DNA of 38,282 nucleotides from a virus: positions 1-38,282 of IMG/VR virus record IMGVR_UViG_3300042731_011625; one strand, written 5' to 3'. A program made the translations under genes and the position numbers. Positions 30,806 through 37,635 of this stretch are shown here, one piece after another (the first letter of the stretch is position 1; each line of letters begins with the position of its first letter). The notes beneath the pieces are model-generated. The model was not told where the DNA came from and did not search any database. It was given only the letters and a program-made list of their open reading frames with translations.

Positions 30806-31063
30806 ATGTTCATCAAGCAGGTCGTGGTTGAGGGCGTCGCCGGCGACGTCGAGATCACCCACGTCGAGCAGGCCGCCCGCGTCACTGTGGGCGGTCGCGT
30901 TATCTGTGAGCTGCGCCCAACGGATAACGACGACACCCGGTGGGCCGCGGCGGTTGTCGCTGCAGCCAAGATCTGCGGCACCGACCGGCGCGGGCGGCCC
31001 AACGCCACCAACAGCATGATCCACGACGTGCTCCGCGAGCTGAAGCGCGTCGCTGGCTGCTGA
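30806..31063 (+). CDS. small phage protein of unknown function (start of plus-strand operon)
   Basis: The 85-residue product starts at 30806 after a strong AAAGGAG site 7 bases away; the longer frame upstream has no such site and overlaps another gene. The first half is a beta meander ([19 protein letters not shown], then [12 protein letters not shown]); the second half is helical ([11 protein letters not shown] ... [15 protein letters not shown]). I do not recognise the family. It is the first of four small genes that run against the late operon and end at an intrinsic terminator, which fits an early or regulatory operon. Confidence 0.65.
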
Positions 31064-31137
31064 CCCCAGACCCAAACACGCGAGCCGAGCGCGGGCTCGG
31101 CCGCATTCCCCAACCCCGTTCCGAAAGGAGCATTCAG

Positions 31138-31560
31138 ATGGCCAAGAAGAAGACCAAGACGAAGAAGACCCGTACGAAGAGGGCCACGGCGAAGTCGAAG
31201 CGGACGCGGAAGCCGCGCACCAGCGCCGGCGCCGCCCGCACCCAGGCTGCGGCCAAGGTCAAGGCGGCACCGGCGGCCAAGAAGCAGGCCAAGGCGCCGC
31301 GCAAGCCGAAGGGCGGCGGCAAGATGAGCGGCCTCGACGCGGCCGCCAAGGTCCTCGCCGAGGAAGGCGCGCCGATGCGGTGCAAGGACATGGCCGAGAC
31401 GGCGATCGCCAAGGGCTACTGGAAACCTGGAGGCAAGACGCCCCAGGCGACCCTCTATGCCGCGATCAGCCGTGAGATCGCCAGCAAGGGGAAGGACGCC
31501 CGCTTCGAGAAGGTCGACCGCGGCTGCTTCCGGCTCCGCCCCCGGAAGAAGGGAGCGTGA
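31138..31560 (+). CDS. histone H1-like tail fused to HARE-HTH domain
   Basis: The 140-residue product has an N-terminal 65-residue tail of Lys, Ala, Arg, Pro and Thr, like bacterial histone H1-like proteins (for example [18 protein letters not shown]), with no hydrophobic core. From about residue 64, [40 protein letters not shown] and the final [12 protein letters not shown] give a HARE-HTH winged-helix domain, found in chromatin and restriction proteins. The start at 31138 has a GAAAGGAG site. Together this suggests a DNA-coating or nucleoid-type regulator. Its target and effect are unknown. Confidence 0.85.
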
Positions 31561-33088: not shown

Positions 33089-34414
33089 TCATTCACCGAC
33101 CTTCTCCCTTGCCGTGTCGACTCGCTCCGCCCTGCGGCCGGTGAACTTCTCCCATCTCTCGCGGATCACGTCGCAATACGCTGGGTCGAGCTCCATGAGG
33201 AACGCCCGCCGGCCGTGCTGCTCGCCAGCGATCAGCGTCGAACCCGAGCCGCCAAAGAGGTCGAGCACGTTCTCGCCCGGCTGTGACGAGTACTGCAGTG
33301 CCCGGGCCGCCAGTTCGACGGGCTTCTCCGTGAGATGCACCATTGCGTTGGGGTTGACCTTCTTGACCGGCCAGAGGTCCGGCACGTTGTTTGGCCCGAA
33401 AAATTGGTGCGCGGCGCCCTCCCGCCAGCCGTAGAAGCACCACTCGTGGTCGCCCATGAAGTCCTTGCGCGTGAGGACCGGATGCTGCTTGTGCCAGATG
33501 ATCGCTTGGCTGAAGTACAGACCGCAGGCCTTGAGCACAGGCGGGTAGTTGCCCACGTTGGCGTAGCCGCCCCAGATGTAGAAGGCCCGGCCGGGCGCGA
33601 GCACGCGGGCGATGTTTCCGAACCACGCGTGCAGCAGGCGCATGAACTCGTCGTCCGAGACGAAGTCGTTGACCAGCGGCCGATCCTTGGCCCGCATCTT
33701 CCGGCCAGTCGGCTTGGCGACCTCCGGCCGGCGGGCCAGGTCGAAGCCCTGGTGGTGCTTTAGACCGGGCTCGCCGAAGGACGACAGCCCCGCCGCGATG
33801 GCGTTGTTGCTCCGCGGCTCGACCCGCACGTTGTAGGGCGGGTCGGTGTTGACCAAGTGGACTGCGGCGCCCTCGAGGAGCCGATCGACGTCGGCGGCAT
33901 TGCCAGCATCGCCGCAGAGCAGGCGGTGGTTGCCCAGCAGCCACAGATCGCCCGGCTCGGTGACAGGCTCGTCCGGCGGCTCGGGCACGTCGTCAGGATC
34001 GGTGTGGCCGGGCGTGCCCGCCGGCGCCAGCAACGTGCTGAGCTCGGCCTCGTCGAAGCCGAGCAGGCCCAGGTCATAATCCATCGATTGCAGCTCGCCG
34101 AGCTCGAGCGGCAGCAGCTCGGGGTCCCACTCGGCCAGCTCTGCGCTCTTGTTGTCGGCGATGCGGTAGGCCTTGATCTGGGCCGGCAACAGGTCCCGGG
34201 CGACGTGGACCGGTACCTTCAGCAGGCCCAGCCTCTGGGCGGCCTTGTAGCGGGTGTGGCCGCAGATGATCACACCGTCGGCGTCCACGACGATCGGCTG
34301 GCGGAAGCCGAACTCCCGGATCGAGTTGGCCACGGCCTCGACGGCCGCGTCGTTGAGCCGGGGGTTCTTCTCGTAGGGCGCGATGTCAGAGATTGGGCGA
34401 CTCTCGGTCTTCAT
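33089..34414 (-). CDS. ParB-like nuclease/DNA methyltransferase fusion
   Basis: The 441-residue product starts with a ParB/Srx-type domain: ISDIAPYEKNPRLN, then GFRQPIVVDADGVIICGHTR (GHTR box) in the first 90 residues. The remainder is an amino-methyltransferase of the beta arrangement, with NTDPPYNV (DPPY 191-194) before VLDLFGGSGSTL near residue 395. It should make N6-methyladenine or N4-methylcytosine. A strong AAGGAGG site precedes the ATG. No restriction enzyme lies beside it, so it is an orphan methylase, as often in phages, where it may block host restriction or mark packaging or replication sites. Confidence 0.9.
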   Translation of the reverse strand: MKTESRPISDIAPYEKNPRLNDAAVEAVANSIREFGFRQPIVVDADGVIICGHTRYKAAQRLGLLKVPVHVARDLLPAQIKAYRIADNKSAELAEWDPELLPLELGELQSMDYDLGLLGFDEAELSTLLAPAGTPGHTDPDDVPEPPDEPVTEPGDLWLLGNHRLLCGDAGNAADVDRLLEGAAVHLVNTDPPYNVRVEPRSNNAIAAGLSSFGEPGLKHHQGFDLARRPEVAKPTGRKMRAKDRPLVNDFVSDDEFMRLLHAWFGNIARVLAPGRAFYIWGGYANVGNYPPVLKACGLYFSQAIIWHKQHPVLTRKDFMGDHEWCFYGWREGAAHQFFGPNNVPDLWPVKKVNPNAMVHLTEKPVELAARALQYSSQPGENVLDLFGGSGSTLIAGEQHGRRAFLMELDPAYCDVIRERWEKFTGRRAERVDTAREKVGE

Positions 34415-34442
34415 GTGGTGGCCTCCTTGCCCGGCGCGTGTC

Positions 34443-34796
34443 TCAGCGCCGCGATTTCATCCGTGAGATGGCCTGGGACAGCCCGTCAACCGGGTAGCGC
34501 ACCAGGCGTCCGAGCCGGACCGCCGGGATGGGCCGGCGCGGTGCCGTAAGCGCCCACAGCGTCCGGCCCGAGACGGACAGCAGCTCGGCCGCCTCCCCGG
34601 GTGTGACGAGCAAGCGGTCAGGGAGGCCCGGTGGCGCCGGCGTCGGCGGGGGCGGCTGCTCCCGCCGAACGGTCGCGTGCTCCCCGGGCCGCCCGGCACG
34701 CCGTCGGGCTGCGCCGTCCTCGATCGCGTGAAGGAAGCGGACCAGGGCATCGGCCAAGCGGCCCGCGGCCGCCATCTCGTGCTCAGTCGGACGCAT
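34443..34796 (-). CDS. AlpA/excisionase-type HTH protein
   Basis: The 117-residue product starts at 34796 with a GAGGAG site. After a helical start (AGRLADALVRFLHAIEDGA) and a Pro-rich linker, the C-terminal part is a MerR/AlpA-type helix-turn-helix: LLVTPGEAAELLSVSGRTLW, then AVRLGRLVRYPVDGL. AlpA and excisionase proteins bind DNA at att sites or promoters. No integrase is seen in the window, so a pure regulatory role is also possible. Operator-like repeats lie 57-172 bases before the start codon. Confidence 0.8.
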   Translation of the reverse strand: MRPTEHEMAAAGRLADALVRFLHAIEDGAARRRAGRPGEHATVRREQPPPPTPAPPGLPDRLLVTPGEAAELLSVSGRTLWALTAPRRPIPAVRLGRLVRYPVDGLSQAISRMKSRR

Positions 34797-35333
34797 ATTC
34801 GGCTCCTCGGTAGGGATTTCTAGCGACCCCGTAGGCCTCCGTGGCCACAGTTCGCCCACGTTGGGCGACGTTGGCCCGTGGGGCGGCGGGATTGGGGTGG
34901 TAGGCAGGGCCAGGGCGGGCGGCCGGGCCCAACACGGGCCAACGTCGCGGCCCAGTGGCCAAGGTCGCGAGGGGCGCGACCGGCGAGCACCCCGTCGTGG
35001 GCCGGTGGCCGGCTGGGCCGGCAGGCGGGGCGAACCGTAGCGGCCGCATACGGCCCGTGTGTCCATTCCTCGCCCGCAGCCGTGTCTGGCCACTCCTGGC
35101 GGCCTGCCTGCGCAGGGGCCGCGTGGCGGCCGTCGGCGCAAAGTCGGACAACTGAAACAAACTCTGTCCCTACGCGTGGGTGTTCCCGCCGGCCTCGACT
35201 GTCATTCTGGCGAGGGAGGACCCATCGCGAACGCGCGCGAACTTCAAGCGCGCGCACGCGCGCCGTGACACGCAGCATCGTCGCGCGCCCTGGCATTTCG
35301 TCCTCGCGCGAGCACGCACGCTGGGTTTGTCCC
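34797..35333. other. GC-rich non-coding region before the AlpA-type gene
   Basis: This 537-bp stretch holds inverted and direct repeats (separate entry) and an alternating CG tract with a hairpin (GCGCGCG 35233-35239, CGCGCGC 35249-35255, loop AACTTCAAG). A long frame in the minus direction (34820 to 35530) is open across it and starts by ATGA overlap with the upstream replication gene, but its composition (Arg/Pro-rich) is that of a GC shadow. Confidence 0.5.
34853..34968. promoter_or_regulatory. operator-like repeat cluster upstream of AlpA-type gene
   Basis: A palindrome CGCCCA-CGT-TGGGCG covers 34853-34867. GCGACGTTGGCCCGTG (34865-34880) is the perfect inverse of CACGGGCCAACGTCGC (34933-34948). 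A third, near-identical copy GGCCAAGGTCGC is at 34957-34968. Hence GGCCAAcGTCGC occurs three times, once inverted. They lie 57-172 bases before the AlpA-type gene start, a place suited for autoregulation. The binding protein is not known. Confidence 0.55.
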
Positions 35334-35525
35334 GTTTCGTTTTGTGCGCCCCCCTTTAAGGGGCGCACAAAACGAAACGAAACCCTGCGTGCCGGACTCG
35401 TTTTGTGGCCGCCAAGCGAGTCACAAAACGAAACGCCGGATTCGTTTTGTGCGCCACCAAACACGCACAAAACGAAACCGCAGGCAATTCGTTTTGTGGT
35501 GTCCAAACGATTCACAAAACGAAAC
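35334..35525. repeat. array of four hairpins with conserved arms CGTTTTGTG/CACAAAACG
   Basis: Four inverted-repeat units stand in tandem. Unit 1: stem 35334-35352 with 35360-35378 (19 bp, 7-nt loop). Unit 2: 35398-35407 with 35422-35431 (10 bp, 14-nt loop). Unit 3: 35441-35453 with 35464-35476 (13 bp, 10-nt loop). Unit 4: 35488-35498 with 35513-35523 (11 bp, 14-nt loop). GTTTCGTTTTGTG (minus strand) is identical in all four. Units 2-4 have 14 bases between the GTG and CAC ends, and a TTGG core in the loop (minus strand). The arms are AT-rich in a GC-rich region. The array begins two bases after the stop of the PrimPol gene. No long T-run follows any unit. The repeats fall in different reading frames, so conservation is at the DNA/RNA level. 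Confidence 0.85.
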
Positions 35526-35526
35526 C

Positions 35527-37635
35527 TCATGGCTGCTCCTCGTCGGCTTGGGCGCCGGCCCGGGGCAGCTGATAGGTGAACGGGTGGTTCCGCTTGCCGT
35601 CGCCCTGCCGGCTCACCAGGCCGTCCGCATCGGCCATGCGGAGCAGGTTGTCCGCCGCCCACTTGGAGAGGCCGGCCCGCACGGCCTGGCCGATGATGGC
35701 CGACCGCGTGGCCGGCTCGTCGGTCACAAAGGCCGCGACGAACGACTCGGGCGACCAGTCGGACTTCTCGCCGCCATGCTTCCGACCGCTCTCGGACCGC
35801 AGCTGAGCCGCATCCAGGCTCTCATCCACGTTCCACACCGGGAACGCCCACCGCAGGCAGATCGGCTCGATGGGCGGCCAGGAGCGCACCGCCGCATCGA
35901 GCACGACCACACCGGCCTCCTCGTGCGGGCGCAGGATGAGGTGCGTATCCGTGGCCCGGCTCTGGGCGCCAGCCCCGGCCCCGACGTCGGTAATGGCCTT
36001 GGCCGACTGGCTGCCCTTGGTCGCGTGGTGGATCAGCACGAAGCAGCAGCCGAGGCGATCGGCGAAGGCGTCGATCCGGTTGTAGATGTTGGCCATGGTG
36101 CCGTTGTCGTTCTCGTCACCGCCGACGGGCATGAAGCGGTAGAAGGCGTCGAGCACGATGAGCTTGAAGCGCCCGGGCTCGACGCCCTCGAAGTAGGGGC
36201 CAAGCGAGAAGATGTCGCGCAGGCGGCCGCGCAGGTTGTCGACCAAGATGCGGTCGTTGATCTCGTGTCTGTTGACGCCGCGGGCGTCGGCGACGATGGG
36301 GATGCGGTGCGCGCTCGTCTCGCGGTGCAGCTCGTTATCGATGATGAGCACATCGCCGGCCTCGGTCGCGTAGCGGTCCAGCCAGGGGCGACCGGTGGCG
36401 ACCGCCATCGCCAGGTCGAGGGTGAGCCAGCTCTTTCCCGTCTTTGGAGGAGCGATGACATTCATCGTCTCGCCCTCGCGCAGCAGGCCGCGGACCACCG
36501 CCGGCCGCAGTCGCGGGTAGGCCTCGACGAGTTCCTTGACGGTGAGCGGCGCTGGCGAGAGCGGGCTGTCGGGCGCCGGCGGCGGGCCGGTGATGAAGGC
36601 AGACAGGTCGACGCCGTGCGTCTGGCCCGGCGCTTCGCCGTAGCCCTGGGCGGCCAGGGCCGCGGCCGCGGCGTTGAAGTCGCCGTTGTGCTCCAGCAGC
36701 GCGAGGACAGCGAAGGGTGAGTAGCCGTGGCGAGGCTCGAAGGGCGGGGCGTTACTGGAAAAGACGTAGAACACGCCGGCCCTGAGCGTCGCGCTCGTGC
36801 CCGCGGCCTTGCCGGGCCGGCGCCAGTACTCGTTCTCGCCCGCCCTGGCGAGCGTCCAGCCGTGGCGCTCGAGTATGCGGCGGGGGTCGCCGCGGTCGTT
36901 GAAGTCGTCGCCGGGGCGCAGGGCGGAGGGGGGTGCGCCCGGGGTGGTGTGTTGGGGGCCGTCAATGACCGGCCGCGGCACCTCGTCGAGGGCCCAGGCG
37001 CAGCCCAGTAGGATGTCGCGTTCGTCGGTGGTCAGCACGGGCGGCGCGCGGAGGTCGCCCTGGAGGAGTTCGTAGCCGTCCGAGGGCGCGCACAGGAACA
37101 CGCCGCCTTCGCCGCGGGTCTCGATGAGGGTCACGTCGACATGCCCCTGGCCGTCGGCGTCGGACCGGGGCTTGTACGTCTTGCCGTTGACCTTGATCGG
37201 CTCGGGTGCGTTGGTCTCGATGCGGCGTCGGGCGAGCGCGGTGTTGCCTGACACCTTCTGCTCGCAACGGTAGATGGCGTGCCGGCCGCCGGAGGGCGTG
37301 GACTCGAAGACGAGCCGGTCAGCCAGGCCGGGAGCAGCGGTCCCGACGGCGTCGCGCCACGCCTCGAACGCCTCGCCGCCGAGGTCGAAGTCGATCATCT
37401 CGAGGTGGCCGGAGACGGCGCCGCAGACGATGCACATCGCGCTGCCGTCGGTCGCGAACCACTTTTCGATCTCCTCGGGCGTGGGCAGGCGGCCTTGGTA
37501 TGGCTTCCACGTTCGTAAGGCGACGCGCTTCTCATCGCCGCGGCGGAGTGCCGGCAGGACGCACAGCCTGGCGGCGAGATAGGCCTTGGCTCGGGCCAGC
37601 GACTCGTTGTCGATTGGCGCTGCGTCCGCACCCAT
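35527..37635 (-). CDS. PrimPol/RecA-like ATPase replication protein
   Basis: The 702-residue product has an N-terminal primase-polymerase domain: MIDFDLGGEAF gives the catalytic Asp82-x-Asp84, and STPSGGRHAIYR (Ser115-Gly-Gly-Arg-His119) the nucleotide-binding line. A middle of about 200 residues includes a short zinc-free linker region. From about residue 370, LLREGETMNVIAPPKTGKSW forms a Walker A, followed by LIVLDAFYRFMPV and CCFVLIHHATKGS, which is the RepA/DnaB-like hexameric ATPase. A winged-helix-like end (RSAIIGQAVRAGLSKWAAD) may bind DNA. It should prime and unwind phage DNA. The start overlaps the helicase stop by one base (TGATG). Confidence 0.88.
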   Translation of the reverse strand: MGADAAPIDNESLARAKAYLAARLCVLPALRRGDEKRVALRTWKPYQGRLPTPEEIEKWFATDGSAMCIVCGAVSGHLEMIDFDLGGEAFEAWRDAVGTAAPGLADRLVFESTPSGGRHAIYRCEQKVSGNTALARRRIETNAPEPIKVNGKTYKPRSDADGQGHVDVTLIETRGEGGVFLCAPSDGYELLQGDLRAPPVLTTDERDILLGCAWALDEVPRPVIDGPQHTTPGAPPSALRPGDDFNDRGDPRRILERHGWTLARAGENEYWRRPGKAAGTSATLRAGVFYVFSSNAPPFEPRHGYSPFAVLALLEHNGDFNAAAAALAAQGYGEAPGQTHGVDLSAFITGPPPAPDSPLSPAPLTVKELVEAYPRLRPAVVRGLLREGETMNVIAPPKTGKSWLTLDLAMAVATGRPWLDRYATEAGDVLIIDNELHRETSAHRIPIVADARGVNRHEINDRILVDNLRGRLRDIFSLGPYFEGVEPGRFKLIVLDAFYRFMPVGGDENDNGTMANIYNRIDAFADRLGCCFVLIHHATKGSQSAKAITDVGAGAGAQSRATDTHLILRPHEEAGVVVLDAAVRSWPPIEPICLRWAFPVWNVDESLDAAQLRSESGRKHGGEKSDWSPESFVAAFVTDEPATRSAIIGQAVRAGLSKWAADNLLRMADADGLVSRQGDGKRNHPFTYQLPRAGAQADEEQP

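Follow-up and report, generated by a model that had tools for sequence, protein, structure and literature searches.

What is the function of the array of short inverted repeats that lies directly behind the replication gene of this planctomycete phage? The window, that is, the whole stretch of DNA analysed, corresponds to the IMG/VR viral record IMGVR_UViG_3300042731_011625 from end to end (38,282 bases). A first-pass annotation had described eight copies of one word, four in each orientation and forming four inverted pairs, and all of them have been recovered: CACAAAACG occurs eight times as an exact match, four times per strand, within 35338-35521 and nowhere else in the contig, the copies being arranged in three small units and one large unit. 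Shuffled sequence contained 0.20 copies on average and 2 at most. The array, whose arms had been annotated as AT-rich in a GC-rich genome, has 52% GC versus 66% in the contig, and begins 1-2 nt past the stop codon of the replication gene, both in the window and in most members of the CACAAAACG class. A further argument, that the arms shift the reading frame, does not apply, since the helicase gene ends at 35527 and the array is intergenic. The features considered are the following:

35146-35223, minus strand: conserved block 3' of the array (GGGTCCTCCC..GGCGGGAACA..GGACAGAGTTTGTTT..TGTCC); the same block is present in many relatives
35316-35392, no strand: large stem-loop from the computed fold, with outer arms GCACGC/GCGTGC, iteron arms and tip GCGCCCC..GGGGCGC
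35338-35346, minus strand: iteron word, large hairpin arm 1, exact CACAAAACG match
35366-35374, plus strand: iteron word, large hairpin arm 2, exact CACAAAACG match
35399-35407, minus strand: iteron word, small unit 3, exact CACAAAACG match
35409-35420, minus strand: degenerate iteron copy between the arms of unit 3, from the 12-bp register
35422-35430, plus strand: iteron word, small unit 3, exact CACAAAACG match
35443-35451, minus strand: iteron word, small unit 2, exact CACAAAACG match
35453-35464, minus strand: degenerate iteron copy between the arms of unit 2, the weakest of the three, with a better fit at +11
35466-35474, plus strand: iteron word, small unit 2, exact CACAAAACG match
35490-35498, minus strand: iteron word, small unit 1, exact CACAAAACG match
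35501-35512, minus strand: degenerate iteron copy between the arms of unit 1
35513-35521, plus strand: exact CACAAAACG match
35527-37635, minus strand: replication protein gene (702 aa), with N-terminal PrimPol, RepA-type hexameric helicase (AAA_25) and C-terminal winged helix, from Pfam, PDB profile and Foldseek searches
35530-35808, minus strand: winged-helix domain at the C-terminus (residues 610-702), which is proposed to read the iteron word, from co-variation, AlphaFold2 and Foldseek

The four stems that had been reported with lengths of 10-19 bp are present, but the first hairpin is larger than described: its perfect arms are 20 bp long (35333-35352/35360-35379), and it is contained in the longer stem-loop at about 35316-35392, which begins outside 35334-35525. 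The three small units keep exactly 14 nt between their 9-mers and share a CCAA core (TTGG on the other strand), and both details of the annotation were exact; the TTGG, however, belongs to a degenerate third word placed 12 bp from the first. In eight loops of the class, 59 of 96 positions agreed with the word when it was placed in the +12 register, whereas shuffling of the loops gave 26.6 +/- 3.9; the eight come from related phages and so are not fully independent. Throughout the CACAAAACG class, sites lie about 4, 16, 29, 51, 63 and 76 nt past the stop codon, those at position 16 and some others being degenerate copies. The apparent loop of the three small hairpins is thus a decayed third copy of the word on a pitch of about 12 bp, which accounts for both the TTGG core and the constant 14-nt spacing, and the array is therefore an iteron array.

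The gene in front of the array encodes PrimPol, helicase and predicted winged helix in a single protein of 702 residues. Its helicase was recognised by Pfam as AAA_25 (1.4e-29), and a PDB profile search, with a profile built from 26 homologues, matched RSF1010 RepA (1g8y) at residues 402-554 (E 8e-14) and the prim/pol domain of pRN1 ORF904 at residues 25-132 (E 1e-4). Foldseek comparison of the full protein model agreed with these matches, returning 1rni (pRN1-type prim/pol, E 8.5e-8) and 1nlf/1olo. The last 108 residues were modelled by AlphaFold2 as H-H-H-E-E, with a core pLDDT of 88-96, and are predicted to form a winged helix; the Foldseek matches of this piece were weak (E of at least 0.02) and nearly all were winged-helix regulators. 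With the closest annotated phages and plasmids the protein has in common part of the helicase alone, at less than 37% identity. In L029, L057, L060, L063, L079, L110 and other relatives, helicase and tail are joined to an N-terminal part that cannot be aligned with the PrimPol of the window, so that the N-terminus has been swapped too.

With the helicase as query, 80 viral loci and 80 loci in GTDB genomes were collected, the latter nearly all from Planctomycetota and mostly from Phycisphaerae. A repeat or hairpin array was found right behind the stop codon in almost all of the collected loci, with words that differ among them (CACAAAACG, CACCACGAA, CACCACACAG, GCGCTCGAG, AACTGCGCGCA, CTCGAAGCGC, GGGTTGAGCGC, GCGGAACA, TGGAAACA, GATGAAAC and others), while some more distant helicase relatives had no obvious array. 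A set of 89 non-redundant loci was picked from those in which one or more 7-mers are repeated behind the gene, a choice that favours arrays somewhat; of this set, 93% had a perfect stem of at least 8 bp no more than 260 nt from the stop (8% in shuffles, 24% in in-gene control stretches), and 26% had one of at least 14 bp (compared with 0%). The best perfect stem had a mean length of 11.4 bp, whereas shuffles averaged 7.0 and the in-gene controls 6.8.

The search for the paired arm motif in genomes and viromes that had been recommended has been carried out, and the motif recurs beside the replication gene. Among 392 genomes drawn from the phylum of the Phycisphaerales MAG (G001) that is the source of L109, paired CACAAAACG was found at 5 places in 2 genomes, all beside a replication gene (the contigs of L109, L112 and L115), and the sole IMG/VR contigs with two CACAAAACG pairs also have them adjoining this gene. 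Most other matches of the DNA pattern in viral contigs (for example L009-L017, L019-L026 and L028) were isolated single pairs without the array layout and were discarded; L006 holds the large hairpin in truncated form. Used alone as query, the winged-helix tail of the window found no relatives. An alignment of the class tails found 11 loci, all on contigs already collected and carrying only this word or the nearest one.

At the position that CCCCTAAAGGGG takes in the CACAAAACG class, a C-rich element such as CCCCCCATACCCCCC or CCCCCTAATACCCCC is present in the arrays of L030-L038, L057, L058, L060, L063-L066, L079 and L083, in many cases with a GC-rich hairpin after it, and matches of this type occur in 53 of the 89 loci. 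In L071, L073, L088 and L104 the replication protein carries an extra HTH (..AERCGVSRQYVNRIR..) behind the winged helix. In three of these four loci (L073, L088 and L104) the array consists of short words, with direct repeats among them at a distance of 11-12 or 24 nt; the words of these three arrays are CGGAACA, GATGAAAC and TGGAAACA. Since these relatives use direct repeats, and since the loops elsewhere hold degenerate copies, protein binding to the words in double-stranded form accounts for the family as a whole better than hairpins by themselves.

Which protein would read the word was addressed by partial rank correlation between word similarity and protein identity given core identity, over 3,916 pairs from the 89 loci. 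Residues 620-702 gave partial correlations of 0.25-0.35 (p = 0.005, the floor of 200 permutations), whereas windows over residues 345-634 gave -0.03 to 0.11 and PrimPol segments a non-significant 0.02-0.08. The word therefore co-varies solely with the last 90 or so residues, and not with the PrimPol, the helicase core or the methylase encoded downstream. The nearest neighbour by residues 640-702 has the same word in 49 of 73 loci, compared with 19-30 of 73 for five core segments; that the figure reaches only 49 was counted against the origin model, as were the coarse word classes and the low complexity of some GC-rich words. Word-class changes numbered 21 on the helicase-core tree and 14 on the tail tree, the expected direction, although with coarse classes and quick trees.

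The protein of the window is itself a mosaic, with a core like that of phages using other words and a tail like that of CACAAAACG phages. Its residues 400-610 are mostly 75-90% identical to L030-L037, L111-L129 and others, and its residues 340-610 are 61-90% identical to L030, L034, L035, L037, L111, L114, L117, L129 and similar loci, whose words are GC-rich and unlike CACAAAACG; the last 90 or so residues are only 23-40% identical to proteins of the L030-L037 and L111-L129 type. Compared with the CACAAAACG class, the core is 45-80% identical (higher for L109) and the tail about 47-82%. L029 and L123 differ in the N-terminal part and have the same word and tail as the CACAAAACG class. L109 carries the same hybrid form as the window, so the tail swap is probably older than the split between the two.

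Because tail and array adjoin, joint transfer could explain part of the correlation, and a recombination tract would take in both. Array and winged-helix codons might then have been exchanged merely as neighbours, without any recognition, and this physical linkage is the strongest residual doubt about the origin model. Nevertheless, the residual correlation has already fallen to -0.03 at residues 570-609, about 100 codons away, and all copies in one array change together while loops and spacers do not. Moreover, between the window and its word-mates the four-fold sites of the tail are near saturation (148 of 339 alike, 133 expected by chance) and the word is unchanged, so that the association is old and has been maintained. 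The sharp upstream loss of correlation, the near-saturated four-fold sites and the internal uniformity of each array suggest that linkage is not the full explanation, and transfer without recognition is considered quite unlikely.

A methylase gene with a ParB_N domain (33089-34414, minus strand, in the window) lies 3' of the array in 63 of the 89 loci, which suggests a conserved replication-linked modification gene. The same frequency could be taken to mean that the array is a parS-like partition site or a DNA-modification (methylation) site for this enzyme; its sequence, however, does not follow the word (whole-protein partial rho 0.009, p 0.45) and no part of it co-varies significantly, which makes such a role very improbable.

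The large unit was aligned as one long stem across 14 arrays, with 24 pairs counted. Paired cells amounted to 94.6%, compared with 83.5% in shuffled and 33-49% in slid controls; two-sided changes, 24 in all, affected 13 of the 24 pairs, and in the outer helix, which lies outside the iteron, 6 of 10 pairs. G-T and A-C mismatches were equally rare (3 each of 333 cells), which speaks against selection on an RNA strand. Given the compensatory changes and this equal rarity, DNA palindromy seems, from the alignment, to be kept for its own sake, in a manner that would fit a cruciform or a single-strand hairpin, and single-strand priming sites are a possible role for the large hairpin. The two-sided pattern could also have arisen, without any function, from gene-conversion-like repair between the arms.

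The large stem-loop (about 77 nt) has a computed fold of -57.3 kcal/mol, and such very stable folds, like the position at the end of the replication transcript, would fit a structured RNA, as the annotation had suggested, or a terminator. An RNA would favour G-U pairs, which does not agree with the mismatch counts; the word is tied to a predicted DNA-binding domain, and some relatives use direct repeats. No terminator-like site (GC-rich hairpin followed by a T run) was found in 34300-35700, and no Rfam family matched the window, so this reading is disfavoured and has very little likelihood. In the relatives the only Rfam matches were two group II introns (L063:1329-1549 and L034:8854-8928).

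Between the array and the next gene, the conserved block at 35146-35223 (minus strand) reads GGTACTTCCCGG..N~20..GCCCGCGGGAACAGC..ACAGACTTTCTTTC..GGCTGTCC and has an inverted GGACAG/CTGTCC inside. It is also present in L029, L030, L034, L063, L113 and others, about 140-380 nt past the replication gene, and is kept across phages with differing iteron words. Farther away, 30940-31560 (plus strand) encodes a small protein that combines a HARE-HTH domain (Pfam 8.9e-15) with an extended N-terminal part rich in Lys, Arg and Ala.

The next gene (ORF 34443-35141) encodes an AlpA-like HTH_17 protein according to Pfam, and the annotation had considered a binding array for an AlpA-type regulator. The words would then be an operator through which this protein, or the replication protein itself, controls transcription; palindromic sites are typical of operators, and the co-variation of word and tail would also fit autoregulation by the winged helix. 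Yet no relative of the HTH_17 gene was detected downstream in the other 88 loci (1 of 89 is the window itself), and the sites lie behind the replication gene rather than before it, with no sigma-70-like promoter seen near the array in a scan. The word is absent from the rest of the contig, and eight strong sites with a 77-nt stem would be unusual for a single operator. The AlpA-type version is thus disfavoured, and an operator array in general is regarded as unlikely.

The remaining proposal of the annotation, a replication origin with iterons, is supported at sequence level by the position of the array, its conservation, the 12-bp pitch and the co-variation with the winged-helix tail. The array is very probably a phage replication origin bound by the winged helix of the adjoining PrimPol-helicase, at which the large palindrome would open and PrimPol would prime. 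Sequence, conserved position and layout, word/winged-helix co-variation, domain swap and compensatory hairpin changes were computed here, and from them we infer that the protein binds the array, that the array acts as an origin, that the hairpin is extruded and where priming takes place. The GC skew has no clear turning point at the array. In the proposed mechanism, the C-terminal winged helix would bind to iterons of the word TTCGTTTTGTG, both inverted and direct, that follow a grid of about 12 bp, and would recruit the RepA-type helicase, a hexamer, to the array with its lower GC. The palindrome of the large unit (35316-35392) may then open as a cruciform or single-stranded hairpin on which the helicase would load and the PrimPol would lay the first primer. 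Winged helix and array would move together as a specificity cassette exchanged between phages.

A broader and tentative proposal, plausible rather than probable, is that planctomycete phages have a common replication module in which winged-helix tail and iteron/cruciform array form an exchangeable specificity cassette. It would exist in at least 10 word types, among them the set in which short direct iterons go with an additional HTH at the C-terminus, and swaps would let phages with the same helicase escape cross-recognition; the cruciform arms would double as iterons, coupling binding and hairpin extrusion for PrimPol priming. The element is real and widespread, and its function is strongly suggested. 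No description of this planctomycete family was found among the open-licence papers searched. For pRN1-type PrimPol replicons the binding sequence has been referred to as 'not yet identified sequence motifs' (PMC4234260). The dozens of natural pairs of winged helix and presumed word, clean domain swaps included, mean that origin recognition by PrimPol-helicases can be tested directly and can perhaps be predicted, and the arrays offer a means of finding origins across a large, uncultured group of planctomycete phages.

The annotation knew of no described element with this arrangement, which was too strong, because SaPI Rep/ori and the pRN1 stem-loop origin share the placement. According to PMC7581432, which cites Ubeda et al. 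2007, SaPI Rep and SCCmec Cch2 each use a C-terminal domain to recognise repeats lying immediately 3' of the gene that encodes them. As in those systems, an initiator helicase is followed by short repeats in a putative origin directly 3' of the gene, here as multiple iterons (eight exact words plus degenerate copies at a pitch of about 12 bp). Unlike in SaPI Rep and Cch2, most sites here form inverted pairs accompanied by a degenerate third copy, a long conserved stem-loop is present in addition, and the helicase, fused to a PrimPol in proteins of the window's type, is of the RepA/RecA type (AAA_25, similar to RSF1010 RepA) and not of the SaPI Rep family type (DUF927 or D5_N/Primase_Cterm). 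The origin of pRN1, described alongside phage BIP-1, is a 100-nt stem-loop 3' of the ORF904 gene whose structure is kept while its sequence changes (PMC4234260). Here, too, the gene of a PrimPol-helicase-winged-helix protein is followed by a large stem-loop kept in structure while varying in sequence, but pRN1 has an SF3 helicase, in place of which a RepA/RecA-type enzyme is present, and no iterons were found there, whereas here the presumed bound word can be identified and co-varies with the winged helix. At RSF1010 oriV, as summed up in PMC4234260, RepA, RepB' and RepC are three separate proteins, and iterons are accompanied by hairpins (ssi) used by the primase. The RepA-type hexameric helicase, iterons and hairpins are shared, although here one polypeptide would do all and the same sequences make up both hairpins and iterons. 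P4 alpha, as outlined in that source, combines primase, helicase and winged-helix origin binding in one polypeptide, an arrangement that is repeated here with a predicted winged helix; its primase is of the Toprim type and its origin layout differs. The module has not been assigned to the SaPI or the pRN1 family because it has the helicase of neither, even though it would work like them; it combines SaPI-type and pRN1-type traits, with a RepA-type helicase replacing the SF3 or SaPI helicases.
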